Source: a virus. From it: DNA of 28,079 nt. Numbering within the stretch: the first letter of the stretch is position 1; the number at the start of each line of letters is the position of its first letter. The DNA is taken from positions 1 through 28,079 of the IMG/VR virus record IMGVR_UViG_3300027733_000170; one strand, given 5' to 3'. Shown here piece by piece: positions 2,205 through 26,224 of this stretch. The notes beneath the pieces were generated by a model. That model saw nothing but the letters and a program-made list of their open reading frames with translations, was not told where the DNA came from and ran no database searches. A program made the position numbers and the translations under genes.

Positions 2205-4331
2205 TTATACAGCTCTAATTATAATCTTTGCACCACCGATATTTCCTCCTTGTTGAGTAGAAACTACAGTAACCGAACCATCGGTATATCCACTTCCTCC
2301 ACCACCTCCACTACTATTTGTTCCACCATTACCACCAGTAGCACCAGCTCCACCATTTCCACTACCAGATACTGTAATTGTTGAATAATATCCACAGTCA
2401 TAAGGATCTCCTCCCGAACTATAAGAAACCCAAAGATTTTCATCTCCCCATACTGTAAATATAAAATATCTAATATAAGTTGATATTCCACTTCTTAAAA
2501 ATCTTACTGTCCAAACTTGACTTCCAGAATCAGAAACTACTGATTGTACTGTAAATCCATCAGGATATTCAACTCCAGAAGCAGCAGTTTTTACAATACT
2601 TCTATCTGGATAAATTACCTTTCCGTTATCAGTCTCAACATAAGATCTTCCCCAATTTGGAGAAAATGTAGATGTAGATTTTGTACTATAAATGGTGTAC
2701 CACCTATCTTCACCATTTATTCCTCTGGATATATCAAAATAACCACTAACACTTTGACCTTGATAACCTGAAGGTCCGACTGCTCTTACTTCATTATGGC
2801 TCATAGATCCAGCAACATCAGTGTTTCCCATTTGAAATGCCACTTGTCTCATTTCGTAGTGATAACCAGTATCACTTGGAGTATAACAAGTTTGAGAAAC
2901 ATAAGGTCCCTGTGTACTATATTGTGCTTCTCCTTTTCCCACAGTTTGACGAATATCATATCCAGATTTAAATCCTCTGGTAATTGATGCCGAGTTAGTA
3001 ACTAATGTTCCATTTGAGAGATATATTTGTGTTCTACCGACATCGGCACAAGCAGAATATCCTCTAGATATCCAATAGTTTCCTTTCGGGCAAGGAAGTA
3101 CTCTTCCTCCGGTTTGTCCGGTTGCTTTGGTATCTGGACTAATTGCAGTTGAACTTGATGATGAACCAAAAATTCCATTAGATGGTAATGTTCCTGCCGA
3201 ATATACATTTGCACCATTACCACCACCTCTACCACCACCGGATGTACCAGCAACGTTTATTCCTCCACCATTACCACCATTGCCTCCAGATGCAGCATCG
3301 CCACCCTTTCCACAAACTGCAATTAGTGAACCTTTACGATAAAGAAAAGGACACTGATTAATTGAATCTAATCCGGCAATAGTATATTCCTCATTCTTTT
3401 TCATAGTAAATCTGATTTTAGAAACTCCACCCTGGCCACCGGAATTTGATCCAGAGTTTGCCCCTGCGCCAGCGTATATCTCCATTTCAACATCAGTATC
3501 AATATCTTTAGCATAAAGAGATATTAAACTTGTTGCACTTGTATTGTCTTGAGCATATAAAATCACATCTCCACTTACCAATAAGTCAGTAGTACTTAAT
3601 GTTGCAGTTGATGATGTTGTATCATATTTCTCTATGGTTATATTTTTAGATGGAGGGACATTGTAAAAATTAACTATATTGGAATATAATGGAGAATTTG
3701 AAGCGGAAGAATTGATAATTCTTGCCTGAATTGCAAAAACACCAATATTTGGATTTGAAATTATGAGATTGGGTGTACTGGAACCACTTACCGTAGAACT
3801 ATCAACAATATCAGTTCCATCAAGTGTCCATTTATAGGATAATGTTCCTTGAGAAGTATCTGTAGAGGATGCAACAACACTAAATGTTGCTGGGAAATTT
3901 ATAGTTGCAGTTGTTTCTACTGGTTGAGTTGTAATACTCAGTGATGGGTAGACAGTTACGATTCCAACATTTGAACTTGTAGGTTCATTCAGTGCATTAC
4001 CAGTGACTCCTGATGGTACATAATCTACCTGCAAATAAATCTGACGATTATGATCTGTTGGGCTTACAAGTCTACTAATGGTTAATGTGGTTGTTGCCGC
4101 ACCGGTAACATAAGTTCCATTTGATATGGCACCATTTTGATCGTACCACTGATAAACAATACTTCCGCTATTTGATGCTGCCTGAGAAAAAGTAGCAGTC
4201 GCAATTCCAATAAAAGTTGCAGAACTACCATTAGTAGTTGCTACTCCCACAGGTTGTCTAGTGAATGATAAAGTCGGACCGTTTAATTCAAAATTTGTGG
4301 GAGTTTCGCGGAAAAGATTATTGTCTATCAT
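2205..4331 (-). CDS. Ig-like plus polyglycine-loop adhesin (tail-fibre tip type)
   Basis: 708 residues. The N-terminal third contains two Ig-like beta domains with 'QPVGVATTNGSSATF...YQWYDQNG' and 'QPVETTATINFPATF...YKWTLDG' signatures. From about residue 285 there are clusters of glycine: about 287-300, about 337-377 (GGNGGNGGG, GGGRGGGNG) and about 654-684 near the C-terminus (GGAGATGGNGGTN, GGGGGSGY). Stacked glycine-rich motifs separated by variable segments are the hallmark of T-even gp38-type fibre-tip adhesins, where polyglycine helices pack together and the intervening loops bind the receptor. I infer a host-recognition adhesin. The start overlaps the preceding 1913-aa gene's stop (ATGA, 4328-4331), implying translational coupling. 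Cysteines near residues 326 and 340 and several in the central part are unusual for a fibre shaft and may stabilise the tip. Confidence 0.75.
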   Translation of the reverse strand: MIDNNLFRETPTNFELNGPTLSFTRQPVGVATTNGSSATFIGIATATFSQAASNSGSIVYQWYDQNGAISNGTYVTGAATTTLTISRLVSPTDHNRQIYLQVDYVPSGVTGNALNEPTSSNVGIVTVYPSLSITTQPVETTATINFPATFSVVASSTDTSQGTLSYKWTLDGTDIVDSSTVSGSSTPNLIISNPNIGVFAIQARIINSSASNSPLYSNIVNFYNVPPSKNITIEKYDTTSSTATLSTTDLLVSGDVILYAQDNTSATSLISLYAKDIDTDVEMEIYAGAGANSGSNSGGQGGVSKIRFTMKKNEEYTIAGLDSINQCPFLYRKGSLIAVCGKGGDAASGGNGGNGGGINVAGTSGGGRGGGNGANVYSAGTLPSNGIFGSSSSSTAISPDTKATGQTGGRVLPCPKGNYWISRGYSACADVGRTQIYLSNGTLVTNSASITRGFKSGYDIRQTVGKGEAQYSTQGPYVSQTCYTPSDTGYHYEMRQVAFQMGNTDVAGSMSHNEVRAVGPSGYQGQSVSGYFDISRGINGEDRWYTIYSTKSTSTFSPNWGRSYVETDNGKVIYPDRSIVKTAASGVEYPDGFTVQSVVSDSGSQVWTVRFLRSGISTYIRYFIFTVWGDENLWVSYSSGGDPYDCGYYSTITVSGSGNGGAGATGGNGGTNSSGGGGGSGYTDGSVTVVSTQQGGNIGGAKIIIRAV

Positions 4332-7300
4332 AGGAAGTTCTGTCCTCCAACAATACCAAACATTCCTGCAGTCGTAACATTTGTTCCATCAAATATCTTA
4401 AAAGAGTAAATATCGGTTCTGTTTGCTGTGGTTGTCACAGTCGGAACAACCCCACCACCAGACCAATAAATCGGTATACTTCCACTATTAAAATTATCAA
4501 TATTAACAGAATACCCCGTAGAACCTTGAGTAATCTTAATTGTGAATGCAGTAGAACCTGTCGGTGGATTTAATAATGTAAATGATGTTACTGCTTCTGA
4601 TGGAGTAAACGTAAATGTCTGTGCTTTAGCAAGGTCAATTGTTACAACTCCAGAAGAACTCGTAAGTGTCTCTACAACTTCAGAATAAGTCTTGAATCTC
4701 GTATGTCCTTCAATATCAAGTGTTGCTCTTGGAGATGATGTACCAATACCTACACCAGTAGAAATAGTGGAAAGTATCGTTCCACCAGTACCAACATTTA
4801 GTGTTGATGTTGTAATAATACCAGCATTAATTGTACCATTTAATCCATTTAATTTATATGACGAAGCAGTAAGCATACCACTAACAAAAATATTATTCGC
4901 CGTGATGAAACCAACAAACTTTGCTTCTCCATTTACATAGATTGAAGTTGTTGAACTCCCAACAGCACCAAGTTCAAGATTAAATCTTGGAACAGATGTA
5001 CCAATACCAACATTATTAAGACTAGTATTATAAATTCCATTTGTAATATTTACCCAACCGGAAAGAGATGGATCTAAATTAGTTAATAGACTACCATCTC
5101 CAGAGAATTTAGTTGCATAACAAGTTCCAATAATATTAGTGTTTCCATTAACTTGTAATTTATATGTCCCATTAGTGGTCCCAATACCCACTCCATCAAA
5201 AGTAATAATATTAGAATTATCTGAAATACTAATATTACCAAATCCATACCAACCATTATCTATGGTATATACCCAACCAAGAGTACTTCCTTTGGTGGGA
5301 TTTGCATCATATACTACATCTCCAGGATTTCCTGCAATAGATGGTTGAGTAACTCCAACAGTATATTTTCTAGAAACTGTAACATCCCCCTGCATAAAGA
5401 GTGATGCTGCTTCAATTCCTTTATTGGATGTTGAAGTAATCTTATTATTGAAGATTACTGGTCCATCAAACTCTGAAATTATATTATTTGATGGACCACC
5501 TTCTACCCTAAGAGAATTACTAATTGTGGCATCTGTTGGAGTTAATATATCATAACCAATATCTGCACCAGATATATTAACATCTTCTCCAGCAACAGTA
5601 GGAATTGGAGCATCAAATATCTCTTCCTGTCCGGTAGAGTAACTAAGTTTTTTATTGCCAGCATAAGAATCACCAGCACTATTCATACCGGTATATACAG
5701 TAACACCACCATCAAGCTTCAGGGATTGAGCAAGTAATTCTTCTTGAGAAGATAGAATACGGTCCTGTCTTTCTGGTAATGCAGTTGAATAATTACCAGG
5801 ACCAAATCCAATATATTCAAAAGTATGTCCAGATGCTCTAATTATGGAATTTCTTCTCAATTCAATTGGAGAAATTTTTACTCTACGAACAACCGAATTA
5901 ATATCGTGAGATACTGCACGAGTACCTAAAATGCCTCTAAAGACTTTTACTGGATTAGTTGTAACTGTAGTCTTTACTCTAACCAGTTCATTATCAATAA
6001 TTAAATAATCTCCAATATTAATATCTAAACTCGTAATATTAGTAATTGAGACATCTTCTGTGGTTGCATTGGATATAGCAGTAAATAAGGTAGTTGTTAT
6101 TCCAGCATATGTTAGAACCATTCTACCGCCAATATTTTCATTATCAAAACTTACATTTCCATCATTTGCAATAAATCCATTACGATGAGCATAAATTGTT
6201 CCGGTAGTTGCTGGACTTGTGTCTGATGTTCCTATATTTAAAGTGAATGTAGTTATTCCAGAGTTATTCCTAACAATAAAATCACCATTGAATAGATTGT
6301 TGGTAGCCCCAGAAAGACGAATTTGATTATCTACTTGTAGCCCGTGATTCTGAGCAGTAGTTACTGTGGCAATTCCAGTCGTTGAATCATAAACCAGGGA
6401 ACTAACACTCAAAGAACTACCAGTTAAATATCCATATGCATTCGTTGTTAATATTGAACCAACACTGGATACGCTATTTGATATTGTAGAAGCAGAACTA
6501 ACAATAATTGATTTGGTATTTCCTACTGGTATATTAGTAATTCTATAGAGGTCATTATATTCAATATAATCTTCAGAATCAACTCCAGAAATTCTTAAAG
6601 AGTCACCAACATTATTATATACCTTAGTAACCGTTAGAACCGCCGGAGAGTAGCCTGTGGTCGTCGCTACGCCCACTACAGTGAGAGTATTACCAATTCC
6701 ATAGGCGGACCCACCATCCATAATTTTAACAGCCGTAATGGAACCGGTGCCATCAACGGTAATTCTGGCAGTTGCATGAGACCCAGTGGTAGAACCGGCG
6801 AATCCAACTAATTGGGCATTATACAGATTACCAATAGCCCCATAACCATATCCAGAACCAGAATATGTGGTATTAACTGTTGTTATCCTATTTAATCCGT
6901 GGTCAATATCAGTATGAATGGTATGTGATGTACCAACATTATTAGATACAATATCAGTGATACCAAAACCAATACGACTATCAACTAGATTTTTATCAAT
7001 AGTTTCTCTTGTGATACTATGTTTGGGGTCATCTGTTACCACCTGTCCAATCATAGTTGGTAATGCAAATGAAACGGAACTCTTTGGATTTGATTCCGGT
7101 TCGTCTCTATTTGCCTGAGGATATAAATCTTTAATTGGTTGAGAAAGTTTAAGATTTGTAAATGGATCTACTGTTGGGGAATTAGATGAATTTAGTACAA
7201 TTAAATGATATACTCCATCTTGTTTTCCCGGTATATATTTCTTAATTTCTTGAGAACGATAGATGTAATATGTATTATTATATCTCTTACGGGCAAACTG

Positions 7301-10069
7301 AGGAAGATCTGTGGTTCTTGCAGATGTATTATTTGTAAATGTTCCTGGGTCTACCGTTAAATCCACACTAAAATGCTTAGAACTACTAATTCCAATTACA
7401 TCAAATGTCCCATTGTATCCAACATTTTTGGTTCCGGTGGTGTTATTGGTACTGGTAACATTTGTAATCTCAATCTGAGACCCAATAGACAATAAATGTG
7501 GTAGTTCAGTAAAAATACTAGCAGTATTGTCACTAATATTCCAATTAGCATCGGCAATGAATTTAAAATTTCTTAATTCATTTACATTACTCATAGTCAC
7601 AGATGTTGGACTATATGAATAATTTACTTCAGTATTAGTTGCTCCAGATGTGTCATTAGATTCTTGTAATACGAATCCATCTGAAGGTGGTCTAGCAGAA
7701 ATTACACCGGAACCAGAAGGAATAACATACCGAAGTCTATAGATAGTATCAATTAAGTTTCTAGTATCTGGATTTCGTTTAATATAAGTTCTTGGTGTAG
7801 CAGCTCCAAGTGCAGCGGTTCCAAGACTTACAATTTCTGGATATATTGTATTTGTTACTGTAGAAACACCAATATACCATTGAGAATTTCCACTATCCCA
7901 CTGAATTGGATGCCCAATATCCCCAGAGTTTTTATCACTTACTTTACTAGAAACACTAATAACTCCACCCATGCTATTAATGGCTAATTCTTGTCCATTA
8001 ATAGCATCATTTAATGTTTGGGATATCTTAATTTGATTAGCTCCCAATCCAGTGGTAATAGCATAATACAGACGATTATTATCTACACCATCTGGTAGTC
8101 TACTATTATCACTATAGAATCTAACAGATTCACCAGAACCAAATGTATGGGAACTAGTAAATGTTAATATATTTGATGCAATACTATTAATACCAACACT
8201 TCTTCCTACAATGTATTTTTTCTCTCCAGTAATTTCTGTATTGGGCATTACAATATTTGCCGAATACTCATTAGCCGAGAATTGAACATTCAGTGTATCA
8301 TTAGACCTAGCACCAATTCTATATCCCTCAATAACATTCTGAGGAGGAGTCGCTAATGTTTGTTGATTGTGTAGATACAACCGACTAGATACACCAACCC
8401 CAATTGTCTTTACTACATCAACCGCATCAAATTCAATTCCATTATCTATTGTCGTTAATTGTTTTGGTGGTATTATATGTGTAATATAACCAACATCATC
8501 ACGACCAAACGCAACATTTCTGAATCCAGATGCCTGAAGTGCCTTTGCTCCAAAGTTAGAATTAGAGTTGGTAATTGAGAAATCCCCACCAGATTCTGCT
8601 ACAAAATGTGTTGCATAACCAATAGCAAAAATACTAACTAACTGCATAAACGCATTATTGGATGCTTTTATGTGGAAATTCTCATAAGATGGAGTAAATC
8701 TAGCTAGAGAATCTGAATGTATATTCTCATTATCTGCATAAGAGGAATTTTTATATGTTCCACTAGATGAATCATATTTAACAAATGCCTTATCATCTTT
8801 CTGTAATCCAATACCAGTAAATTGAGCAACCACCATAGACTTGAATCCAGTTGCCTTATTCCCATCGGCATAAACACCACACATACCATAAACAGATCTC
8901 AATGAAATATTGAAGATGTATGGAGAAGCAGATGTAACAGTATCCACACTCAAACTTACCTTAGCCCCAGTCACACCAGGTAAAGGATTAGTTGGAGCGT
9001 TCTGTACTTGATATTCAAATTCTGTAGTTCCATTTGAGTCTACAGAGATAACATCACTAACAACATATTGACCATTATATCCACCAGAACTGATTCCTTC
9101 TATCTGGAATGTGGTATCTACATCTAATCCAGAATATCCACTATCTAAAGAAACTGTGATAATTGGAGTAGATATAGTACCATTACCAGCTCTAATGGTA
9201 GTAATTCCAATTTCTCCACCAGTTGGACCAACGATACGATATTCATCAATTTTTGCTTGAATATCTAAAGGTGCTGTTGGGTAATCTGGTTGGATTTCTC
9301 TCCCCGAAGATTGACCATAAGCAAGTCCAACTTTCTCATAATACATATCCAGATCTGTTCTTTCTGTTGAATATGTAATGAATGTATCTTTAATGGATAC
9401 GGGATTTATTCCATCACAATACTCAAAGCAAGTTAGCTTATGATGAGAGAAGTTTGGAACATATGTATTGGTAGTGTAATCTTTATAGCATATCCCATTT
9501 GGATTTGAATCTAAAATACTAAATCCCCAAAGGAAATTACCACCAGTTAACCGAAATATTGCACTTCTTTCAATATTATCATTCTCTGGATTTGGTACAT
9601 ATTTTGGCCTAAATATTGTCTTTCTTAGATCTGAGTGTGCACTAACTAGGCTACATCCTCTTGGAAGAATTACTCCACCGTAAATACTGTTAAGTTTATA
9701 TAGTGCATTATTATTGGTAGTTATATCAAAATTAGTAGTTAAATCCCAGGCGGGGAAATCATCTGTATTTTGTCCATTTCTTAATACATAATTATTTGAT
9801 GTATCCGGTATAAATCCCGGACGATTATCAATATCATATATTCCACTACCAACTACAATTGTAGTTTCAGCAAATCTATCATTGTTAAGTCCTCGTTGAT
9901 ATGAGAATCTAGCACATTCAATAATTGCCCTCTGGACACTTATAAATGGTCGGATTGGACTGTTTCCACGATTCTCAATACTATCACTTGAATCAAGACT
10001 ATGCTTATCAACATAAATCGCATTGCCACGAACAGATTTTAATAAATTATCTAATCTTGATAGAGCCAT
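4328..10069 (-). CDS. Giant (1913 aa) tail-fibre/baseplate structural protein
   Basis: The largest gene in the window. The N-terminus (MALSRLDNLLKSVRGNAIYV, then SIENRGNSPIRPFISVQRAI) matches a family I recognise as conserved among cyanomyovirus structural proteins. The 'RPF-S-VQRAIIECARFSY' segment resembles the start of pectate-lyase-like parallel beta-helices. The long middle is rich in Asn, Ser, Thr and Gly with many short beta strands and no enzyme motif that I can see. The C-terminal 400 residues carry repeated VGIGT(S/T) modules like those in the gene at 2167, plus a terminal block with FTPSEAVTSFTLLNPP and ending GIVGGQNFL. It follows a late promoter motif (10096-10104) placed directly after the terminator of the small-gene cassette, and its stop overlaps the adhesin start. 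Inferred role: a large fibre or baseplate-anchored spike. Confidence 0.85.
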   Translation of the reverse strand: MALSRLDNLLKSVRGNAIYVDKHSLDSSDSIENRGNSPIRPFISVQRAIIECARFSYQRGLNNDRFAETTIVVGSGIYDIDNRPGFIPDTSNNYVLRNGQNTDDFPAWDLTTNFDITTNNNALYKLNSIYGGVILPRGCSLVSAHSDLRKTIFRPKYVPNPENDNIERSAIFRLTGGNFLWGFSILDSNPNGICYKDYTTNTYVPNFSHHKLTCFEYCDGINPVSIKDTFITYSTERTDLDMYYEKVGLAYGQSSGREIQPDYPTAPLDIQAKIDEYRIVGPTGGEIGITTIRAGNGTISTPIITVSLDSGYSGLDVDTTFQIEGISSGGYNGQYVVSDVISVDSNGTTEFEYQVQNAPTNPLPGVTGAKVSLSVDTVTSASPYIFNISLRSVYGMCGVYADGNKATGFKSMVVAQFTGIGLQKDDKAFVKYDSSSGTYKNSSYADNENIHSDSLARFTPSYENFHIKASNNAFMQLVSIFAIGYATHFVAESGGDFSITNSNSNFGAKALQASGFRNVAFGRDDVGYITHIIPPKQLTTIDNGIEFDAVDVVKTIGVGVSSRLYLHNQQTLATPPQNVIEGYRIGARSNDTLNVQFSANEYSANIVMPNTEITGEKKYIVGRSVGINSIASNILTFTSSHTFGSGESVRFYSDNSRLPDGVDNNRLYYAITTGLGANQIKISQTLNDAINGQELAINSMGGVISVSSKVSDKNSGDIGHPIQWDSGNSQWYIGVSTVTNTIYPEIVSLGTAALGAATPRTYIKRNPDTRNLIDTIYRLRYVIPSGSGVISARPPSDGFVLQESNDTSGATNTEVNYSYSPTSVTMSNVNELRNFKFIADANWNISDNTASIFTELPHLLSIGSQIEITNVTSTNNTTGTKNVGYNGTFDVIGISSSKHFSVDLTVDPGTFTNNTSARTTDLPQFARKRYNNTYYIYRSQEIKKYIPGKQDGVYHLIVLNSSNSPTVDPFTNLKLSQPIKDLYPQANRDEPESNPKSSVSFALPTMIGQVVTDDPKHSITRETIDKNLVDSRIGFGITDIVSNNVGTSHTIHTDIDHGLNRITTVNTTYSGSGYGYGAIGNLYNAQLVGFAGSTTGSHATARITVDGTGSITAVKIMDGGSAYGIGNTLTVVGVATTTGYSPAVLTVTKVYNNVGDSLRISGVDSEDYIEYNDLYRITNIPVGNTKSIIVSSASTISNSVSSVGSILTTNAYGYLTGSSLSVSSLVYDSTTGIATVTTAQNHGLQVDNQIRLSGATNNLFNGDFIVRNNSGITTFTLNIGTSDTSPATTGTIYAHRNGFIANDGNVSFDNENIGGRMVLTYAGITTTLFTAISNATTEDVSITNITSLDINIGDYLIIDNELVRVKTTVTTNPVKVFRGILGTRAVSHDINSVVRRVKISPIELRRNSIIRASGHTFEYIGFGPGNYSTALPERQDRILSSQEELLAQSLKLDGGVTVYTGMNSAGDSYAGNKKLSYSTGQEEIFDAPIPTVAGEDVNISGADIGYDILTPTDATISNSLRVEGGPSNNIISEFDGPVIFNNKITSTSNKGIEAASLFMQGDVTVSRKYTVGVTQPSIAGNPGDVVYDANPTKGSTLGWVYTIDNGWYGFGNISISDNSNIITFDGVGIGTTNGTYKLQVNGNTNIIGTCYATKFSGDGSLLTNLDPSLSGWVNITNGIYNTSLNNVGIGTSVPRFNLELGAVGSSTTSIYVNGEAKFVGFITANNIFVSGMLTASSYKLNGLNGTINAGIITTSTLNVGTGGTILSTISTGVGIGTSSPRATLDIEGHTRFKTYSEVVETLTSSSGVVTIDLAKAQTFTFTPSEAVTSFTLLNPPTGSTAFTIKITQGSTGYSVNIDNFNSGSIPIYWSGGGVVPTVTTTANRTDIYSFKIFDGTNVTTAGMFGIVGGQNFL

Positions 10070-10095: not shown

Positions 10096-10104
10096 CTTAT
10101 TTAG
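10096..10104 (-). promoter_or_regulatory. T4-type late promoter motif for the 1913-aa gene
   Basis: Minus-strand CTAAATAAG, followed by ACATAAGG, ending 27 bases before the ATG at 10069. It sits just past the rho-independent terminator at 10108-10131, so the fibre genes restart their own transcription here. Confidence 0.65.
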
Positions 10105-10107
10105 TAC

Positions 10108-10131
10108 AAAAAAAATCCCTTAAGGGATTTT
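10108..10131 (-). terminator. Rho-independent terminator closing the small-gene cassette
   Basis: Minus strand reads AAAATCCC-TTAA-GGGATTTT followed without a break by further T, giving eight T in a row. The 8-bp stem with a four-base loop and the U tract begin at the stop codon of the 54-aa gene. It separates the cassette from the late promoter of the 1913-aa gene. Confidence 0.8.
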
Positions 10132-10294
10132 ACTGGTTGATAATATACTCAACTGTATTTGCTATATCATCCATTGCTTTTCTTAAATCTGGCTGCCCAC
10201 CAGATTCTTGTAATGGTATCTCCACCTCTGAATATGAAGTTAGAGTCCATCTCCATTGCTGCATTGATTTTGAGTACCACAGATTAATTTTCAT
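10130..10294 (-). CDS. Small conserved-looking phage protein, 54 aa, unknown function
   Basis: A very short frame: ATG at 10294, TAA at 10130-10132. The protein starts MKINLWYSKSMQQWRWTLTS and ends with an amphipathic helix (PDLRKAMDDIANTVEYIINQ). Its ATG lies two bases after the stop of the 91-aa gene, and the terminator stem begins in its stop codon. Both facts support it as a real last gene of a cassette. The Trp-rich N-terminus looks like a small beta hairpin. I have a faint memory of similar short proteins in cyanomyoviruses but no function is known to me. Confidence 0.7.
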   Translation of the reverse strand: MKINLWYSKSMQQWRWTLTSYSEVEIPLQESGGQPDLRKAMDDIANTVEYIINQ

Positions 10295-10296
10295 CG

Positions 10297-10572
10297 TTAA
10301 TCTTGAGGCAATGCTTCTGGATTTGATATTTCCAATTCAAATAATAATGGATGCGCCTCTTCATCTATTAAGTAAAACGCGGAAAGATACATCTGTTCCG
10401 CGTTATATCTTTTATTGCTATTAGCTTCTTCTATGATTGCTGGATCATTTTTTGCAATTTCTGGTAATTCATCAAATGTAAATGGGGTACCTTGAATGAA
10501 AAAAATTCTAGCAATGAATTCGTTGTTAGAAACACTGTACCAGTGGACAGATGAACTGATTAAGTAGTCCAT
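10297..10572 (-). CDS. Small phage protein, 91 aa, unknown function
   Basis: Acidic protein starting MDYLISSSVHWYSVSNNEFI, with an N-terminal beta-rich half and a helical, Glu-rich second half (FTFDELPEIAKNDPAIIEEA). There is no membrane segment, signal peptide or catalytic motif. It is the third gene of the four-gene cassette. A late-type motif (10581-10592) lies just upstream, so this gene and the next may be expressed from both the early promoter and a late one. No family recognised. Confidence 0.75.
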   Translation of the reverse strand: MDYLISSSVHWYSVSNNEFIARIFFIQGTPFTFDELPEIAKNDPAIIEEANSNKRYNAEQMYLSAFYLIDEEAHPLLFELEISNPEALPQD

Positions 10573-10580
10573 TGTTTTTT

Positions 10581-10592
10581 TAAATATTTAGG
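10581..10592 (-). promoter_or_regulatory. Possible late promoter motif inside the small-gene cassette
   Basis: Minus strand CCTAAATATTTA in the 26-base gap between the 53-aa stop and the 91-aa ATG. It keeps the CTAAATA core shared by the other late motifs but lacks the following A, so the match is weaker. Confidence 0.4.
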
Positions 10593-10598
10593 TAATCC

Positions 10599-10760
10599 CT
10601 ACTCTACTTCGTATGAAGTTGGGTGTAATTTACAATATTCGTTAAACACAATCTTCATTTCTTTATTGGTCAATCCACAATTTTCTGCTGCCTCAGGAAC
10701 ATTCCACCTAGATTTAAACAACATTTCTAATGATTTCAATGTCTGTGGTCTTGTGCTCAT
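10599..10760 (-). CDS. Small putative helix-turn-helix protein, 53 aa
   Basis: ATG at 10760, TAG at 10599-10601. The start overlaps the stop of the 66-aa gene as ATGA (10757-10760), supporting translation by coupling. It starts MSTRPQTLKSLEMLFKSRW, and the central segment NVPEAAENCGLTNKEMKIVF has the helix-Ala-turn-helix spacing of small DNA-binding folds: an AA pair, a Gly in the turn and a basic second helix. This makes a regulatory or DNA-binding role plausible, but the assignment rests on pattern alone. The position under an early-type promoter fits a protein acting on the host or on phage gene expression rather than a structural part. Confidence 0.7.
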   Translation of the reverse strand: MSTRPQTLKSLEMLFKSRWNVPEAAENCGLTNKEMKIVFNEYCKLHPTSYEVE

Positions 10761-10957
10761 ATTAAGGGAACATAGCTGAGAGTTTCTGATGTTAGAACAC
10801 TACGCACATAAGTTAAAACTTCAATAAATTGAGCAATAGTTTCACACTCAACTAATCGTTCATTTCCTTCTGTAGAATATATTAAAAAATTCTTAGCCCC
10901 AGTATTAACCACACACTTAGCCAAATATTCCTCATCAATCATAGTCTCAATACCCAT
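10757..10957 (-). CDS. Small phage protein, 66 aa, first gene of the early-type cassette
   Basis: Starts MGIETMIDEEYLAKCVVNTG. A second possible start (Met6, base 10942) lies after a GAG and would give 61 residues. The centre (NFLIYSTEGNERLVECETIA) looks like a small alpha/beta fold, followed by a helix. Two cysteines are present. There is no signal peptide or membrane segment. It is directly downstream of the sigma70-type promoter (predicted transcription start about 20 bases before the ATG) and overlaps the 53-aa gene. Function unknown. Being first in an early transcript fits an accessory host-takeover protein, which is inference. Confidence 0.75.
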   Translation of the reverse strand: MGIETMIDEEYLAKCVVNTGAKNFLIYSTEGNERLVECETIAQFIEVLTYVRSVLTSETLSYVPLI

Positions 10958-10982
10958 ATTGTTGCATTCTCATTGCTTTCAT

Positions 10983-11011
10983 ATTATAGCAAGTCCTCTC
11001 AGAAAAGTCAA
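10983..11011 (-). promoter_or_regulatory. Near-consensus sigma70 (early-type) promoter with extended -10
   Basis: Minus strand: -35 TTGACT (11011-11006), exactly 17 bases of spacer, -10 TATAAT (10988-10983) preceded by TGC (extended -10). It reads leftward into the 66-aa gene. This is a host-type promoter, quite unlike the CTAAATAA late motifs around it, and it is the strongest promoter-like sequence I see in the window. Confidence 0.85.
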
Positions 11012-11013
11012 GT

Positions 11014-11036
11014 GTGCCAGTTTTCAAACTGTCCAC
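11014..11036 (-). repeat. Imperfect palindrome abutting the early promoter
   Basis: Core CAGTTTTCAAACTG (11018-11031) is a 6-bp inverted repeat around a two-base centre, flanked by GTG and CAC to make a 23-base imperfect palindrome. It lies between the stop of the Gly-rich structural gene (11036-11038) and the -35 element. It could be an operator or a weak hairpin; there is no U tract, so terminator function is not favoured. Confidence 0.6.
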
Positions 11037-11806
11037 TATGTCAATATATCAATTAACGTATCAATAGCTGCTGCTCTAGCAGTATTATTTTCCATAACTC
11101 TATTATAACTCCAAATCTCTAATTGATAATTATATTTTTGTTCTTTAAGAAGAGTAACAGCATCTACATATGATGTAATACCAGCACGAAGAGTAACTAT
11201 CTCGGAAATAAGGGAGGTAATAGAAGAAGCATAATTAGCACAAGAACCCGCTGGTCCAGTAATATTTACAACCGTTCCAATAAAACCACCACCAGTGTCA
11301 TTAATTACCAATATTGTACTTTTTCCAATACCAACATTTCCGGTGGTAATTTGGGCATAACCTGCGCCAGTAAATGGATTATCCTCTGGGGCAGTTCCAT
11401 TTTCTAGATAAGGATAATAATATCCTTGTGCTGTATCTTGACGAACAGTTCCAAATCCAATAACACCACCTGTACCAAATCCCACAGAAGTACCAATACC
11501 AGTGGTTGCTACTCCAGTCAAGATAGAAGAATAAACTAAAGTCACAGACCCAGCGGTAGAACCAATTCCACAAGTAGATGCAGTACCGATACTAGCGGCA
11601 TCCGCACATATCTGTACTATCTGTTGTTTCTTTGTATTTATTTGGTATATATTGGATAAAATTAAATTATCCATAATGATGGCTGGGTCGTTAAAATATC
11701 CAATTCTAGTTTGTGCCGTATCAATAATGGTAGGTAAAACTACATTACTATCAATCAATCCCGCTCTTTCTGTTGTTAATATACCAACTGCTGTTGAAAT
11801 AGTCAT
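11036..11806 (-). CDS. Gly-rich structural protein, about 256 aa
   Basis: Start chosen at 11806 (MTISTAVGILTTERAGL) because ATG there overlaps the previous gene's TGA as ATGA, the junction style of its neighbours. An ATG five codons upstream (11821) is the alternative. The N-terminal 75 residues are helical. The middle is a Gly/Thr/Ser/Val-rich beta region with repeated (V/I)GIG(T/K) motifs similar to those of the fibre proteins. The last 75 residues are predicted helical (SSITSLISEIVTLRAGITSY), possibly a trimeric coiled coil. Two or three cysteines lie near the start of the Gly-rich region. No enzyme motif is visible. Position at the end of the hub/spike gene block suggests a virion component, perhaps a fibre connector; exact role unknown. 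Confidence 0.75.
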   Translation of the reverse strand: MTISTAVGILTTERAGLIDSNVVLPTIIDTAQTRIGYFNDPAIIMDNLILSNIYQINTKKQQIVQICADAASIGTASTCGIGSTAGSVTLVYSSILTGVATTGIGTSVGFGTGGVIGFGTVRQDTAQGYYYPYLENGTAPEDNPFTGAGYAQITTGNVGIGKSTILVINDTGGGFIGTVVNITGPAGSCANYASSITSLISEIVTLRAGITSYVDAVTLLKEQKYNYQLEIWSYNRVMENNTARAAAIDTLIDILT

Positions 11807-12570
11807 TTTAGTTGTAACCAATCTTGGCCTGGATAATCTTTGGGAGATGTCCCTTCATATTCTACAATCAATTTATCCATATCTTTTCTTTCGGCATAAA
11901 CAGTATAATAACAATTTATGGCTGCCCCAGAGTTATTTTTTATATGAATTATTTTACCCCAATCAATTTTGTCAACAAACAATTCCTGATAAGACCCAAT
12001 AGGAGTAAGATTTACTGTAATAGTTTCGGCATCAACTAAATTTGCCCAATACTCAGGAACAGTTATTGTAGTAGAATTTTTTAATTTCCCCCTAAAATAA
12101 ACTCCAATTTCTGGACCTTCCAAACTAACGTGCCTTAACCGATGCGTTGACTTAGATGGATGTGGAATATCAAATGGTTTTGCTGGTAGTGCTTTTGCTA
12201 GATTAATTTGAGAAGCAACATCCCCAATTCCAGCCAGAGTAATCGTATTATTAGCCGAAATTGTGCCATTTACAACAATATTACCATTAGCAATAATTTT
12301 ACCATTTACAATCATCTGACTGACTTTGGCAATCAAACTTGGTAAATTAGAACCAGCATTCTTTTCTAATATAATATTACTGGTACTTGTTCCAGCACAA
12401 TGGAAATAGGCATAATCACCTGGGTTATTAAAAAATACAACTCCAATATCAGTTAATTTAAAAGATGTATCAATTGGAATTTCTTCCCACCAAAGTGGTT
12501 CAGTATCTATAAAAGTATAATCATTTGCTGGACCAGTGAAAGTCCCATAATTAATAAAATTAAATGGCAT
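11803..12570 (-). CDS. LEGPE-domain structural protein, 255 aa
   Basis: Residues 1-80 form a beta-rich N-domain with aromatic NYGTFTGPANDYTF. Residues 87-113 are short repeated strands (VNGKIIANGNIVVNGTISA) that look like a small beta-helix or prism. Residues 131-245 contain a C-terminal domain beginning KPFDIPHPSK and carrying RHVSLEGPEIGVYFRG, followed by PEYWANLV and PIGSYQELFV. I recognise this domain from cyanophage fibre-type proteins. The neighbouring 224-aa protein has a clear paralogue of it. The start lies inside the end of that gene (11-base overlap). Inferred: a trimeric baseplate- or fibre-associated structural protein. No catalytic residues are assignable. Confidence 0.75.
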   Translation of the reverse strand: MPFNFINYGTFTGPANDYTFIDTEPLWWEEIPIDTSFKLTDIGVVFFNNPGDYAYFHCAGTSTSNIILEKNAGSNLPSLIAKVSQMIVNGKIIANGNIVVNGTISANNTITLAGIGDVASQINLAKALPAKPFDIPHPSKSTHRLRHVSLEGPEIGVYFRGKLKNSTTITVPEYWANLVDAETITVNLTPIGSYQELFVDKIDWGKIIHIKNNSGAAINCYYTVYAERKDMDKLIVEYEGTSPKDYPGQDWLQLK

Positions 12571-13234
12571 TGTTTATCTCAATAATAAGTTTTTCTACGT
12601 CATTTCTTTCTGCAAAGATATGATAATAACAATCAATGGGTATACCACCATTAGATTGTAAAAAAATCTTATTCTCTCCGATTCTTTTTACAATCACATT
12701 CTGATGGGCACCAATTGGCTGTAGCTGTACTGTTATTGTATCAGAATTCACTAATTTTGTCCAGTATTCAGGAAGAGAAATTTCTTTTTTATTTGTAATT
12801 CTTCCTCTCACATATACTCCATTCTCCGGACCCTCAAGACAAGAATGAATTAATTGCTTTCCTGGTTTTGTTGGATGATTAATAATGAAGTTCTTGGTTT
12901 TTGCCATTAGAACTTCTGTATAGATAATCTTAGATTTAATAGTCTCAACTGAAAGTAAAGTATCTACCTTAAGGAAACTTTTAATTCTAGCATAAGTTTT
13001 CACTACCAAAGAATAGAAAGGAATTGGTTTCATTTCTATATTTGTAGTTCTTCCAACCATCAATGACCCCAATTCTGTGGGAATTGGTTCTATGAATTCG
13101 GTTGAATCACCCACAATCTGCGGACCCTCAATTGCTGCTGTTCCATTTACTGTTGTTGGTCCTCTTCCGAATATTTCTGGTTTATTACTACCAACAAATA
13201 ATCTTTCCCCAACTGTCACTCTATCAAATTCCAT
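12560..13234 (-). CDS. LEGPE-domain structural protein, 224 aa
   Basis: The start is well supported by an AGGAG five bases before the ATG, one of few good ribosome-binding sites here. Residues 1-110 form a beta-rich N-part with FVGSNKPEIFGRGPTTVNGT and a likely beta-prism stretch. Residues 111-224 carry the domain KTKNFIINHPTKPGKQ...HSCLEGPENGVYVRG, then PEYWTKLV, PIGAHQNVIV and CYYHIFAERNDVEKLIIE. This aligns along its length with the C-domain of the next gene (PEYWANLV, PIGSYQELFV, CYYTVYAERKDMDKLIVE), so the two are tandem paralogues whose N-parts have diverged. Likely a virion appendage subunit; function beyond that is not visible. Confidence 0.75.
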   Translation of the reverse strand: MEFDRVTVGERLFVGSNKPEIFGRGPTTVNGTAAIEGPQIVGDSTEFIEPIPTELGSLMVGRTTNIEMKPIPFYSLVVKTYARIKSFLKVDTLLSVETIKSKIIYTEVLMAKTKNFIINHPTKPGKQLIHSCLEGPENGVYVRGRITNKKEISLPEYWTKLVNSDTITVQLQPIGAHQNVIVKRIGENKIFLQSNGGIPIDCYYHIFAERNDVEKLIIEINNAI

Positions 13235-16800: not shown

Positions 16801-17849
16801 CCTAATATAGATGAAATAATATTCTCAACAGCACATAATGGAACATTTATGTATCTATCAATAATTTGAGATAAAATCTTACTAATCATCTTCAATAGAT
16901 TACTGATAATTTTATTGAAGAGGCAGGTAATAGTGTCTATAACCTTACGATGAGCCAAACATAATTTAGATTCCTCATCAGGAAACAATGTAAAATAAAA
17001 ATCTGAGATTGCGTTATTTATTTTTTCAATAACTTTTTGTCTAATAGAATTTAATAAGTTCTTAATCCATCCAGAAATAGCAGTTGCGGCACTCAGAATA
17101 AAACCTTCTATTTGAGAGGTTATTTCACTTGTTTTATTGTTAATCCAATATGACCAATTTTTCGTTCTTTTCTTGAAATTCTCAATATTTCTAATAAACT
17201 TTTTAATTTCTGTTTGAACCCCATCTAATTGAACTCGGCAACTCTCTGGAGAGAGAATATCAGACTCCTCCTCTCCAGATTTTTTTTGCGCTATATCAGC
17301 TTCAGTTGTCCTAGTAACTAATCCAACACCTTCAATTGGGTTTTCTGGTGGTGGTGACCCACTTCCAGACCCTTGTGGTGGTGACCCACCTGGAGAAATT
17401 GCATATGGGGGAACAATTTCTTTTGAAAATCCACTAGTCGGCTTAAATCCCTGCAGAGTAAATGTTGATGCTAATTTTGTTTGGTCATTATTACCTAGAC
17501 ATCCCATTATTATGGGTTCTTGTCTACTCATTCCATCCTTATAAAACCCAATAACATAAGAACCCTTTCTTAAATTAGATGTCTGAAAACTTGCTGCGTG
17601 TCCAGTACCAGCAGTTACTGGATACATAACTTCACACATCTCAAGACTATCTGCGGGAAGAACTCTGCGATCCTCAGAATGCTTACCTATAATTCTTACC
17701 TTATACCGCATTCCCCATCCGGGAATCTTATCTGGGTCTGTCCACTTTTCACCAATTTGATTAGTTTTCCACGAGCTATCATCCTCAATTTGCCCTATCC
17801 ACCAATTGAAGCCATTGGACCCAAGTTTTTGGTTGTTAAAATGACTCAT
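13818..17849 (-). CDS. 5: gp5-like baseplate hub, OB-fold N-domain, 1343 aa
   Basis: Residues 1-125 (GFNWWIGQIEDDS, GWGMRYKVRIIGKHSED, then LRKGSYVIGFYKDG and PIIMGCLG) match the OB-fold of T4 gp5, which sits on the gp27 trimer. No T4-lysozyme domain is visible. Residues about 205-405 are strongly helical and hydrophobic with several Cys (KKFIRNIENFKKRTKNWSYW, ISSILGKLIGLIEGTI). Later come an Ig-like repeat (about 535-605), a collagen-like GPTGPTGPTGPTG stretch (about 610-624), two copies of a Cys-flanked domain (about 625-742 and 750-868), three more Ig-like repeats (about 875-1110) and a Gly/Pro/Ser-rich tail ending VVDCVGKF. Its start overlaps the 70-aa gene's stop (ATGA). Gene order after the gp27-type hub agrees. 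The length is far above T4 gp5 (575 aa); the extra domains are probably exposed. Confidence 0.85.
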   Translation of the reverse strand: MSHFNNQKLGSNGFNWWIGQIEDDSSWKTNQIGEKWTDPDKIPGWGMRYKVRIIGKHSEDRRVLPADSLEMCEVMYPVTAGTGHAASFQTSNLRKGSYVIGFYKDGMSRQEPIIMGCLGNNDQTKLASTFTLQGFKPTSGFSKEIVPPYAISPGGSPPQGSGSGSPPPENPIEGVGLVTRTTEADIAQKKSGEEESDILSPESCRVQLDGVQTEIKKFIRNIENFKKRTKNWSYWINNKTSEITSQIEGFILSAATAISGWIKNLLNSIRQKVIEKINNAISDFYFTLFPDEESKLCLAHRKVIDTITCLFNKIISNLLKMISKILSQIIDRYINVPLCAVENIISSILGKLIGLIEGTILNAVQQITSIVGGAIDIAGDILGIISNILGIFLCDEQQNCPTINKWSTWNGPSSSTLLDMGKIFDKAKQISSTAQQIVDPNNFSFDMNFDDIFEDSCNVGPIFCGPPTVEFFGGGGIGASGNAIINAAGNILGVDITSPGTNYTSTPTIKFVDACGNGSGATGTPIIGSIPIVPPELTLVATQINSTNYKIEWTTTNADNITSDFNASGLNGFIVDSPISRKTYTLTAYGKNNTSVSKTVVANPTITKPTGPTGPTGPTGPTGSTKSACQLATGGPGIYLDLTGYTGIQKVTIKTSEESSIFHTINIPGVGAIDENAPDKTYDLEGGKVYGPCTATIGTLYIGEETPAGGKNKLIIEEGGDDWNDMTLTVDVGKFIRCPTPVTTPVAPGKACQATTIGHSGDGIYLDLTKYVGDQVIIFTTSESSAIAHSINIQGVWNIPKTLKTQTFTLMGGRVYGPCTTPNGKLYIGKETPVGGDNKLIVEEGGDDWDDMVLVVSIGSFVRCSTGSLLPDLTLSAVPSTQKRFKITYSTKNAVRIDSNFTAAANNSIVNGIIEVDPPDVGKLYEMTAFDVNNISIKKTIFLQPTNTNTPPPTNPLPQLDFTSKQVDVNKYELTWKTTDATRVVSNFGKTDLSSSTIIDITKTTVVTLTAYNVDNKDISKSLTLVFTPVTTPPVTNNVLTFTAKLIRGKNTYELEWDAIKASSIKTNFGGTTISGKIEVTPNIKTNYIVTAYWGIVEIEKSIELTPINDPCPPIPQISSPPPATTSAQNPAYTGVIGVVITNPGSGYLSSPNGSLGGSGRTWANSDDTIVQRLDGTYDTPYSPGETVQLNKCDEVSPPCQPKFRASSNYTYTAPKGCSRTATSNYPNTNTGSYPVILYICGITISNTGVNYATTDKIVVDPANGAILEPTFGPFGALIGVKIIESGSGFKQMPNIYIESQTGYNAKLIPTLCVQRIGNIPQKQGQIPIQTKVIDVVDCVGKF
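15258..15635 (-). repeat. Second copy of duplicated Cys-flanked domain in the gp5-like hub
   Basis: Pairs with about 15636-16013 at a 378-base (126-codon) offset. Both copies contain IYLDLT, then (S/F)xINI(P/Q)GV, a GGxVYGPC motif, LYIG-ETP-GG-NKL and EEGGDDW(N/D)DM, and end near a RC(P/S)T. The DNA has diverged while the protein motifs are kept, so the duplication is old and under selection. Confidence 0.75.
15981..16026 (-). repeat. Short collagen-like repeat (9-bp units)
   Basis: Tandem 9-base units (plus strand CCAGTGGGT with T/G variants) encoding GPT repeats in the gp5-like protein, between an Ig-like repeat and the duplicated domain. It has only four or five triplets, so it is more likely a flexible or slippage-prone linker than a stable collagen helix. 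Confidence 0.8.
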
Positions 17850-18058
17850 GACTCATACAGACGACATTCAATGGATTCCGGATTTTTAAAACAGTATAAT
17901 TCCAACGAGTTCGGCGTATATTCCGATTCTGGATGATATTCCAAATATTCTAGAAGTTCTTCCAATCTATCTTCTAAATATCTTCCTCTCTGAGAAGAAT
18001 GTTGGAGAATAAGCTCAACTTCTATCTCGTTTATGGTTTCGGAAATGAGCTTTTTCAT
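17846..18058 (-). CDS. Small acidic helical protein between gp27-type hub and gp5-like hub, 70 aa
   Basis: Starts MKKLISETINEIEVELILQH and continues as Glu/Leu-rich helices (RYLEDRLEELLEYLEYHPES), with two cysteines near the end. A late promoter motif lies within the last codons of the preceding hub gene, and its stop overlaps the gp5-like start (ATGA), so it is translated just before gp5. The position invites a role as a chaperone or assembly factor for the hub, but nothing in the sequence proves this. I recognise no family. No membrane segment. Confidence 0.75.
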   Translation of the reverse strand: MKKLISETINEIEVELILQHSSQRGRYLEDRLEELLEYLEYHPESEYTPNSLELYCFKNPESIECRLYES

Positions 18059-19385: not shown

Positions 19386-22300
19386 TTAGGTAAAGGAATA
19401 AGCGGGAGCAAATCCAGTATTATTTGTAGGAATTTGTTGTATTATTGGTTGTATAGCTATGATAGTATCGGTATATTCATCATCATATGTATCTGATAGC
19501 CGAGTAACTCTTGGGGTTGTTCTTGCTATTTGTGCTTCTTGTGATATTGGAGCAGCAGAATTATCAAATACTTGCGGTTTACCATTTGATGATGGTCGTT
19601 CGGGAGTTGGGGGTTTAAATGGATTTAATATATTCAACCAATTTGGTGGTGTAGGTGGTTGTGGTTGTGGTTGTGGTTGTGGTTTTTTAACCATATCATA
19701 CATTTCTTTACCGACATCATATTCTAGATTATTTTCCTCGGACATATAATATTTACCACCACGCTCAAAATATGTTCTTTTTCCTAATTTTAATATTCCA
19801 GTCTTTTGTGCTTGCTGAGTATTTCCAGTTGGTGTTGGAGATGCTTTTGGTTTATTTTCTAATGTTGGTGTTCCTACACTATCCATTGGTTTATTTGCTA
19901 CCTTTGCTCGTACCGACCCACCAAATCTCAAATAACTATTCACCACAGATGCTGGATCAACCTGACCACTATATGACATTGCATTACCAGATGGGAAATA
20001 TTCAAAGTGCAAATGAGGGCCGGTGCTGGAGCCGGTGCTTCCCTCTTTCCCAATTAATTGCCCAGCTGATATTTTTTCCCCACGTCTTACATTAACCTGA
20101 CTCAAGTGACCAAATCTAGTCTCTGCTCCATTGGAATATTTTAAAACAACAGAATAACCATAACCATCATTCTTCCATCCAGAATGTACTACCGTGGCGT
20201 CTTGGGCAGAAGATATTGGTGAGTTATTCCCACCATCAATATCAATACCTTTGTGCATTTTCCCCCATCTCCATCCAAAACCAGATGTTGCTACTCCAGG
20301 AGTTCCTCCAGTTACCATTGATTCTGGCCCAGCTCCAGGTGGACCCTGCCCCTGTGTCATTCCCTGTTTCTGCCAAAGGTTATATGTTTCTCTCATCTTT
20401 GCCGAATCTGCTGCTGGATTTAGTGGAACTTCCCACTTTTCCATCCACCAATCAGCTGCTTCAAGTGGGGAATTGAATTTTTGTTTTTGGTATTGTGGAC
20501 CAACAGATTCATTAATAGCATAATCTATCTGACCTTTCCAATTAGTCTTCCAATCAGGAACTGCTTTAATCATAGCCGCAAATCTTGGCCCATTCCATTG
20601 AAATGCTCCACCAACCATTAAGTTATTACTATCAATATGAGAATCTGATGGATTAAATTTGCTTTCTCTATCAACGTTTAATGTGATACCTAATGCATTA
20701 TTTGGTTCTAATCCTTTAGAAATTAAATAATCATAATATTCTTTTGCATTTCCCTGTAATCCAGTTACAGGACCACCAGGACCACCTCCACCACCTCCAC
20801 CACCAGAAGGATCTGTAAGATTAAGTTCTTTCATAATATTCTGAAATATAACATTAACTCTATTATTCAACATTGAATCTAAAGAACTAGCGATTGAATC
20901 GGCAACTTTCTCTCCTATTGATGGGCCACCTAATGTTCTACCAACTACTCCACCATCTGCCATTGCAAACATTCCATCAGATTGAGTATCAATAGTGTTC
21001 TGAACTATATTTCCAATATTTTCTGCAAATTCTTTATATACAAATCTATTTGGAGCTTGTCCCATTGCAATATCTATGGAATCTCCCATAATTCCACGTA
21101 TTAGTGTTGGTCCAGTTTTTAATATCTGTGATGTATGTTGAAGAGACCGCAATGCACTACGCTGTTTTGGATCCGTTGAATTTTGGAATAATTTTTCAAT
21201 ATTTTTCAATCCACCAATATTTTTCCCTGGTTGAGATTTTTGTGGAATGGATGATTTAATTCTTTTTGGTTCTCTTCTAAGGGTTCTCTTAATAGGACCA
21301 CCAACCTTGCTTCCACCACTTGGCGATACTCTACCACCAGTTGCGTGTTTTTTTGGCTTCTCTTGATTACCTAATGTAGCATCATAAAGAGATTTACCAA
21401 GCATATCTCCAAGAGTTGAACCAGCAATGGATGTAGCCCCCATAATTAAACCAGAGGCAAGCAATCCAACTCCACCAGTACCAAGAGCAAGGGCACCAAC
21501 TGCTAATCCACCTAATATATCTCCAATGGCCATACCAATACCTGCACCAACTGCACCAGCTGCTGCTTTTCCCGGATCTACTCCGGTTGCTACATCAAAC
21601 GCAAAGTTAATTAATGAACCAATAATTGGTATAGAACCAAATCTTAATGCTTTACCAAATTTGCCAGCTGGTTTAGGAATATTAGGGGGGAGTCTACTTC
21701 CTCTATTAGTGACTCTTGAGGTTCCGCCGCCACCACCACCAGGTGGTCTTCTATTATTTTTTGGTGTTCCAGTTGGTGAAGTTGGTGGTTTTTTTGGAGG
21801 GATTTTAGGTTTAAACCAATCACTTTGCCCAGATCCAGCAATTGCTAATCCAATAATAATTGCTTTGTTCAGATAATCATTTAAATTTTTAGATAAATCA
21901 TCAAAAATCTTTTCATATTTTTCTCCACCAACTTGTTTAACTAAACCTCTTACTTTATCATATTGTTTATAGCCAAAATCAATGGCATTAACAGTTGCTG
22001 TGAATAGAGTACCAATAAAAAGTTCCGTAAAATCAATAATTGGTTTTATTACCTGTACTATCTTAAGAATTTGGGGGAGATATTTAAATAACTTCGTAAT
22101 TGCAAACCCCATAAAGGTATACAATATAAAATTCTTAATACCATCTAAAAATCCAACTTTCGGAGTGGCTCCGCTTAAGAATAAATTCGGGTCAATATTC
22201 TTTTGTGTAGTTGATTCCTTTTCTTTTTCAGACACACTCCTAGCGGATTCTTCCTTTTTTATTCTATCTTGGTCGTTAATCTTCCTCATATTTGTTGAGG

Positions 22301-22436
22301 TTGAAGTAACAATGGTATTAATAGATTTAAGATTTTTCTCAATTGATATCAATACATCAAGAATTGGTGTTGAATTCTCAATTTGAGTTGTGGTAGCAAC
22401 TGGTCGTGGAATTAATCTACTTGGATTTATTGCCAT
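19386..22436 (-). CDS. Tape-measure-like tail protein with tail-lysozyme and M23 peptidase domains, 1016 aa
   Basis: N-terminus has a short helix and a charged coiled coil (to about 80), then hydrophobic helices (about 95-120, 130-150, 263-281) and a Gly/Ala-rich membrane-like stretch (about 290-345), as in phage tape-measure proteins. From residue 562 a domain resembles the phage tail lysozyme family: GNAKEYYDYLISKGLEPNNA with a candidate catalytic Glu591 in NVDRESKFNP, then GAFQWNGPR. Residues about 700-840 are an M23 endopeptidase: H728-K-G-I-D732 and H808-L-H810 (the metal-site motifs), plus ATVVHSGW and GSTGSSTGPHLHFE. A QPQPQPQPP linker precedes the end. Likely cuts both glycan and peptide bonds of peptidoglycan at DNA entry, replacing the lysozyme missing from the gp5-like hub. 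Confidence 0.85.
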   Translation of the reverse strand: MAINPSRLIPRPVATTTQIENSTPILDVLISIEKNLKSINTIVTSTSTNMRKINDQDRIKKEESARSVSEKEKESTTQKNIDPNLFLSGATPKVGFLDGIKNFILYTFMGFAITKLFKYLPQILKIVQVIKPIIDFTELFIGTLFTATVNAIDFGYKQYDKVRGLVKQVGGEKYEKIFDDLSKNLNDYLNKAIIIGLAIAGSGQSDWFKPKIPPKKPPTSPTGTPKNNRRPPGGGGGGTSRVTNRGSRLPPNIPKPAGKFGKALRFGSIPIIGSLINFAFDVATGVDPGKAAAGAVGAGIGMAIGDILGGLAVGALALGTGGVGLLASGLIMGATSIAGSTLGDMLGKSLYDATLGNQEKPKKHATGGRVSPSGGSKVGGPIKRTLRREPKRIKSSIPQKSQPGKNIGGLKNIEKLFQNSTDPKQRSALRSLQHTSQILKTGPTLIRGIMGDSIDIAMGQAPNRFVYKEFAENIGNIVQNTIDTQSDGMFAMADGGVVGRTLGGPSIGEKVADSIASSLDSMLNNRVNVIFQNIMKELNLTDPSGGGGGGGGPGGPVTGLQGNAKEYYDYLISKGLEPNNALGITLNVDRESKFNPSDSHIDSNNLMVGGAFQWNGPRFAAMIKAVPDWKTNWKGQIDYAINESVGPQYQKQKFNSPLEAADWWMEKWEVPLNPAADSAKMRETYNLWQKQGMTQGQGPPGAGPESMVTGGTPGVATSGFGWRWGKMHKGIDIDGGNNSPISSAQDATVVHSGWKNDGYGYSVVLKYSNGAETRFGHLSQVNVRRGEKISAGQLIGKEGSTGSSTGPHLHFEYFPSGNAMSYSGQVDPASVVNSYLRFGGSVRAKVANKPMDSVGTPTLENKPKASPTPTGNTQQAQKTGILKLGKRTYFERGGKYYMSEENNLEYDVGKEMYDMVKKPQPQPQPQPPTPPNWLNILNPFKPPTPERPSSNGKPQVFDNSAAPISQEAQIARTTPRVTRLSDTYDDEYTDTIIAIQPIIQQIPTNNTGFAPAYSFT
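19657..19684 (-). repeat. 6-bp tandem repeat encoding Gln-Pro linker
   Basis: Plus-strand GGTTGT repeated about four and a half times, giving a QPQPQP linker near the C-terminus of the 1016-aa protein. Simple repeats of this type are prone to slippage and can change linker length by two residues per unit. Confidence 0.8.
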
Positions 22437-25510: not shown

Positions 25511-26224
25511 CTAAAAAAAACTAGATAACCCTTCTAACACTACAGTACTTTCAACTCCAGTATTTTTATTTGTTACCTTCACCTCGTGAGATAATTTAGG
25601 CATTGTAGCAAAGAATTTCTCAATATCCTTGAATTGATTACTATTCATATCCTCAAGAAAATCATTTAACTCTTTTTTAGTAACATCAGCAGCAACCCAT
25701 ACTTCTTCCTCAGTATAAATCTTATCAATACAACTAGCTATCAAATCAAAGGATTGATCTATGTTGTTGTCGCTATTAAAATCAAAGTTATTCTTAATGA
25801 ATTGATTCAGTGATGGGTATTTCATTTCCATTGAAATAGAATCATCAATCTTTATTTTCTTATTATGTGTTTCATCAGTCTTAACCTTAATCTCATCAAT
25901 ATTAATCTTAATTGTATCAGTTGTCTCATTATCATCAGGGCAGATAAGAGTCACTTCAATTTCTTCACCAACAGACTTAGCACGAATATTTAAAAATAGA
26001 AACTCAATATCAAATGTTGGTAGGGTTTCAACCTTGATATTTTCAGTAATACAATTTTTAATTACTGTCTTAATTGCAGTTGTAATTTGTTTAGTGTCTT
26101 CGGATTCTAATGCTAGTAGAAGAAGTTTTTCTTCCTTCACTAGAAATGGACGATATTTAATTACTTGCCCACTTGATGGCAATTCCAACTCAAATGTTGG
26201 CACAGAAATTTTAGGTAAAGCCAT
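25511..26224 (-). CDS. 26: Baseplate hub/assembly protein, gp26 family, 237 aa
   Basis: The opening PTFELELPSSGQVIKYRPFL followed by VKEEKLLLLALES is the strongest signature of the T4 gp26 baseplate family (T4 protein 208 aa). The rest is alternating helices and strands, with a Cys-containing TLICPDDNE turn (about residue 128) and a C-terminal PKLSHEVKVTNKNTGVES hairpin. Soluble, no membrane segment. In T4 gp26 assists hub assembly; whether it stays in the virion here cannot be told. A late promoter motif (26246-26255) sits before its ATG, at the end of the tube gene, so it can start its own transcript for the downstream tail genes. Confidence 0.8.
   Translation of the reverse strand: MALPKISVPTFELELPSSGQVIKYRPFLVKEEKLLLLALESEDTKQITTAIKTVIKNCITENIKVETLPTFDIEFLFLNIRAKSVGEEIEVTLICPDDNETTDTIKINIDEIKVKTDETHNKKIKIDDSISMEMKYPSLNQFIKNNFDFNSDNNIDQSFDLIASCIDKIYTEEEVWVAADVTKKELNDFLEDMNSNQFKDIEKFFATMPKLSHEVKVTNKNTGVESTVVLEGLSSFF

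Follow-up and report, generated by a model that had tools for sequence, protein, structure and literature searches.

Four small genes with an early-type promoter and an internal late motif inside the tail gene cluster of a T4-like cyanophage

Four tiny genes among tail and baseplate genes

We evaluated a 28-kb virus record (28,079 nucleotides, G+C 34.9%), the whole of which we call the window. By family and profile matches it is made up of T4-like tail and baseplate genes, among them a fibre gene (phrog_529), a gp5-type hub/lysozyme, a gp26-type baseplate hub, a hub assembly catalyst, tail tube, head closure and a DNA end protector. Judged from its CP12 gene and its closest records, the source is a T4-like cyanophage (Kyanoviridae). 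The CP12 gene itself (70 aa; 17846–18058, minus strand; Pfam CP12, E = 3.5e-10) is flanked by the gp5-like gene and a gene for a tail protein and has ATAAATA 26 nt ahead of its start, and S-SM2 carries CP12 at the equivalent place; CP12 is a Calvin-cycle inhibitor carried by cyanophages. Also in the tail cluster is a 1016-aa protein (19386–22436, minus strand) whose Phage_lysozyme2 domain precedes a Peptidase M23 domain.

The cassette studied here lies on the minus strand between the end of a 256-aa gene (11036) and the start of the fibre gene (10069). In order of transcription, it consists of a 66-aa gene (10757–10957; phrog_662, 2.9e-11; Pfam DUF7294, 2.4e-14), a 53-aa gene (10599–10760; phrog_1920/1308, 7e-23; T4-GC 160), a 91-aa gene (10297–10572; phrog_4134, 8.8e-29; T4-GC 730) and a 54-aa gene (10130–10294; phrog_2818, 1e-22), the first two overlapping by ATGA at 10760–10757, just as an earlier note on this DNA had described them. 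The downstream neighbour is the 1913-aa tail fibre gene (4328–10069, minus strand, about 5.7 kb; phrog_529 tail fiber protein, E reported as 0). The upstream neighbour, the 256-aa gene (11036–11806, minus strand), probably starts at ATG 11806 rather than at TTG 11821; family searches with it returned no match, and weak homologues occupy the equivalent place in SynMITS9220M01 and several contigs. Farther upstream stands the gp5-like 1343-aa gene, with genes of 191, 224, 255 and 256 aa in between, of which the 255-aa and 224-aa genes (11803–13234, minus strand) are tandem relatives that both match phrog_17490 and phrog_28536 and show a DNA self-match. The earlier view of the cassette as an insert of non-structural genes, headed by an early-type promoter and lying among virion genes, is supported.

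All four PHROG families are annotated as of unknown function, the 66-aa product also matching DUF7294. Homologues were found in 434 phage records for the 53-aa protein, 80 for the 91-aa protein (plus 148 IMG/VR stretches) and 79 for the 54-aa protein, while the 66-aa protein reached 23 records directly and 275 via its S-SSM5 homologue; among the matches listed, nearly every phage is one of Synechococcus or Prochlorococcus. When IMG/VR was searched with the 66-aa protein by itself, its divergence was too great for any relative to be recovered.

Structural modelling makes one of the four products a candidate DNA-binding protein. The AF2 model of the 53-aa protein (mean pLDDT 71.5) has three helices (6–16, 21–28, 32–45) with a turn joining helices two and three, and its top structural neighbours are mostly DNA-binding helix-turn-helix domains (PrrA, NtrC1, HetR, DeoR), at scores that are weak (best Z 6.7, in the common range for the tool; no Foldseek E below 0.4). 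One of 25 family members matches HTH_8 at E = 0.039, below significance, and the S-SCSM1 homologue is annotated as a ‘Rob transcription factor’. The helix-turn-helix candidate of the earlier note is supported as an HTH-like three-helix model, with HTH-led matches of Z at most 6.7, and we consider the protein probably, not certainly, helix-turn-helix. For the 66-aa protein, a confident small alpha/beta model was obtained (pLDDT 87), to which structural comparison brought up nothing convincingly related; assignments to a ribosomal protein, FtsH N-domain or PH domain fold were rejected at Z of at most 6.4 and low identity, such matches being discounted because small alpha/beta arrangements are common. 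When the profiles of the four families were run against PDB sequences, nothing meaningful was matched: the 91-aa and 54-aa proteins yielded no usable hit, and what the 54-aa family did pick up was mostly short stretches of designed helical proteins.

Promoters, late motifs and terminators

Host-sigma70 early promoters have been described for cyanophages (PMC2984593), and a near-consensus one precedes the first cassette gene at 11011–10983 on the minus strand (TTGACT, 17-nt spacer, TATAAT, with the extended -10 TGC), with a start expected near 10976. Taken on the window sequence alone, the match is moderate evidence: three minus-strand sites across the whole window match at least 11 of 12 hexamer positions as compared to 0.9 expected by chance, with 0.08 expected on that strand once the 17-nt spacer and TG are added. 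Conservation turns this into strong evidence, such that we regard an early-type promoter as well supported, and the promoter call of the earlier note is strengthened. Among relatives dereplicated at 90% identity, which are all cyanophages and hence give counts that are not fully independent even then, 53 of 54 have TTGACA-17-TATAAT, with at least 11 of 12 positions matching, at this place ahead of the first gene, as against 0.1% of shuffles, and 0–1 relatives have it ahead of any other gene tested. Across these relatives the hexamers are near-invariant, near 2 bits at most positions, while the flanks are mostly unconserved, which is the pattern expected from selection on a promoter.

A few individual genomes deserve mention. 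No clear sigma70 promoter was found before the first gene of P-TIM68 or S-SSM5. In S-SKS1 (L009, 4959–4995) the annotated start of the first gene falls within the promoter, and a start 36 nt downstream fits better and would give the gene a perfect promoter. The first 48 kb of S-SM2 hold only three perfect TTGACA-17-TATAAT sites: the cassette promoter, one in front of a 2OG-Fe(II) oxygenase/ferrochelatase island and another leading into a series of small genes (L094, 36829 and 43249, respectively), such that perfect promoters seem to mark non-structural islands in that region.

At the other end of the cassette, before the fibre gene, a hairpin (AAAATCCCTTAAGGGATTTT; about -8 kcal/mol, z = -1.9) followed by a T-run forms an intrinsic terminator (10112–10131, minus strand), so the rho-independent terminator reported earlier also holds. 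Terminators precede the fibre gene in 21 of 44 relatives (window included) versus 0.5% of shuffles, implying that in about half of these phages cassette transcripts would be stopped short of the fibre gene. Upstream of the cassette a terminator was found at none of 52 loci, and late transcripts from upstream could consequently enter it. Between the 53-aa and 91-aa genes, 4 of 25 relatives have an intergenic terminator, so read-through from one to the other may not be general.

The published cyanophage late promoter is NATAAATA (PMC2984593), to which NTAAATA is close, the form in the window being CTAAATA. Two copies matter here: one 35 nt before the fibre start (10098–10104, minus strand) and one inside the cassette, 19 nt before the 91-aa gene (10585–10591, minus strand). 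The internal copy was missed in the earlier note. After dereplication, 47 of 48 relatives have NTAAATA within 60 nt upstream of the 91-aa start (3.6 expected), and all 44 have it likewise ahead of the fibre start (3.1 expected); the 66-aa, 53-aa and 54-aa genes and those upstream structural genes that were tested show no enrichment. The 19-nt gap in the window would leave a very short leader, and this counts against reading the internal motif as a late promoter. It had further been claimed that all neighbours carry CTAAATAA late motifs, and this was not confirmed: on the minus strand of the window raw counts are near chance (CTAAATA 5 versus 5.2 expected; CTAAATAA 4 versus 2.0), and few starts are preceded by a motif. 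Whole-window counts are uninformative here, the informative measure being motif position relative to gene starts; within 70 nt, only the fibre (35 nt), 91-aa (19 nt) and CP12 (26 nt) genes, together with those at 26224 (30 nt), 26984 (33 nt) and, on the plus strand, 27021 (34 nt), have one.

These features bear directly on whether the cassette is a single, self-contained early operon running from promoter to terminator, acquired in moron-like fashion and without late expression, as the earlier note had proposed. The conserved promoter, the terminator and the tight packing of the genes fit such an operon, and the early promoter and terminator of that proposal stand; its extension to all four genes is not supported, given that 47 of 48 relatives have a late motif ahead of the 91-aa gene and that none of the 52 loci shows an upstream terminator. 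The member genes also occur apart elsewhere, the 53-aa gene lying between td and phoH in S-CRM01, for example. As for a moron, the cassette has its own promoter and terminator, and it also has an internal late promoter motif and long-conserved synteny; dozens of diverged relatives share the gene order, which argues against a recent self-contained acquisition. We judge the single early operon to be unlikely. The earlier note had named as telling against its proposal a set of related phages that always hold these genes here and express them only late: the genes are indeed usually here in relatives, whereas the conserved sigma70 promoter argues against late-only expression.

Relatives, tRNAs and a known hot-spot

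Comparing loci revealed that Bellamy, S-SM2 and dozens of IMG/VR contigs hold the genes in the same order ahead of the fibre gene. In S-SM2 and Bellamy the cassette runs T4-GC 29, 160, tRNA-Leu, 730, tRNA-Thr, 1162, and thus shares with the window all four genes in order (proteins 41–65% identical), the same first-gene promoter and a late motif before both the 91-aa and fibre genes; it differs in having tRNA-Leu and tRNA-Thr and, in S-SM2, extra small ORFs. GenBank coordinates of the S-SM2 cassette tRNAs (L006 / NC_015279.1, 22300–22830) are about 55 nt off the ARAGORN positions, and because of this shift they seem to run into the genes that follow. The slot and its tRNAs are also present in SynMITS9220M01, where the 53-aa gene was not detected. 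In another variant, the phrog_662 gene of S-SSM5 comes first after gp5; in S-SSM5 and S-RIM8 a Phd-like antitoxin gene (phrog_375), which the window does not have, follows the first gene, and the 53-aa gene adjoins tRNA-Leu. Other phages fill the slot with cpeT, 2OG-Fe(II) oxygenases, ferrochelatase, endonuclease V or a Phd-like antitoxin.

Most relatives carry tRNA-Leu(UAA) between the cassette genes, and many tRNA-Thr(UGU) too, whereas ARAGORN and Rfam found no tRNA or RNA family in the window. At 10572–10760 the window holds the 53-aa gene without the tRNA-Leu that accompanies it in relatives, and the 53-aa frame, as annotated in several phages, extends into the tRNA gene. An obligate tie between the 53-aa gene and tRNA-Leu was rejected on account of its td–phoH location in S-CRM01.

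This distribution raises the question of whether the cassette is mainly a tRNA expression unit, with the proteins secondary and tRNA-less phages holding the remnant of a decayed tRNA island. At 44 of the 62 loci with the 66-aa, 91-aa and fibre genes there are one to three tRNAs, and all 22 of those loci with a detectable 53-aa gene have tRNA-Leu, as such a unit would have it; yet the remaining 18 loci retain the 66-aa and 91-aa genes without any tRNA, and the sigma70 promoter is retained at tRNA-less loci as well, which argues that the proteins are kept for their own sake and makes a tRNA unit improbable. We consider it very unlikely that NTAAATA before the 91-aa gene is part of a tRNA 3' trailer or a translation signal rather than a promoter, for although it stands near the start codon and, in many relatives, directly behind the tRNA-Leu 3' end, it is kept with or without a preceding tRNA (as in the tRNA-less loci L016, L022, L029 and L042 and in the window) and the identical motif stands upstream of all 44 fibre genes.

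A hot-spot ‘near gp5 with tRNAs’ was named by Sullivan et al. 2010 (PMC3037559). As in that hot-spot, the window cassette lies in a slot beside gp5, with gp5-side baseplate genes on one side and the long fibre gene on the other, and is made of small hypothetical genes where the hot-spot has such genes along with tRNAs and auxiliary genes between baseplate and fibre. The window version holds four small genes only and no tRNA, but tRNAs are not required for belonging to the hot-spot, since 18 of 62 relatives are also without them. With the hot-spot in the literature and all four families in databases, the suggestion that this might be an undescribed small system falls away. The split proposed here between early and late promoters is not described in the available text of PMC3037559. 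Overlapping early and late promoters are known from RB49 and S-PM2 (review, PMC2984593), and both types from cyanophage psbA (PMC5931967); like these cases, the cassette combines host-sigma70 and gp55-type promoters in one region, and it differs in that its two promoters precede different genes instead of the same one.

A probable early head and late-restarted tail

We interpret the region as, very probably, a minimal, tRNA-less version of a conserved T4-like cyanophage accessory cassette with an early head and a late-restarted tail. From the observed genes, their order, the terminator and the conservation of both promoter types, we infer the following course of timing and read-through. The unmodified sigma70 RNA polymerase of the host would begin near 10976 early in infection, copying the 66-aa and 53-aa genes (and tRNA-Leu in relatives) and continuing across the 91-aa and 54-aa genes as far as the hairpin at 10131–10112, which would shield the 5.7-kb fibre gene from early transcription. 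At the late stage, a gp55-type late polymerase would restart at CTAAATA 10591–10585 for the 91-aa and 54-aa genes and start at CTAAATA 10104–10098 for the fibre gene, and upstream late transcripts would also run into the cassette because no terminator precedes it.

As for function, the cassette products are probably small host-takeover or regulatory proteins, the 53-aa product most plausibly a small helix-turn-helix DNA-binding protein. A further-reaching possibility, which we think rather unlikely, is a two-stage and undescribed regulatory module in which the helix-turn-helix protein and the DUF7294 protein are made early, the 91-aa and 54-aa genes are re-expressed late, and the helix-turn-helix protein acts on the late switch.

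The early-head/late-tail split adds detail to a type of locus already known, and what seems new is so sharp a comparative demonstration of it within the hot-spot. To our knowledge, cyanophages do not have the MotA/AsiA middle system of T4. Sequence by itself points to a highly conserved sigma70 promoter within a tail gene cluster, with a late promoter a few hundred bases on. The cassette thereby offers a clear, testable case for the timing of accessory genes in cyanophages, and it flags four very widespread families of tiny genes for functional work.
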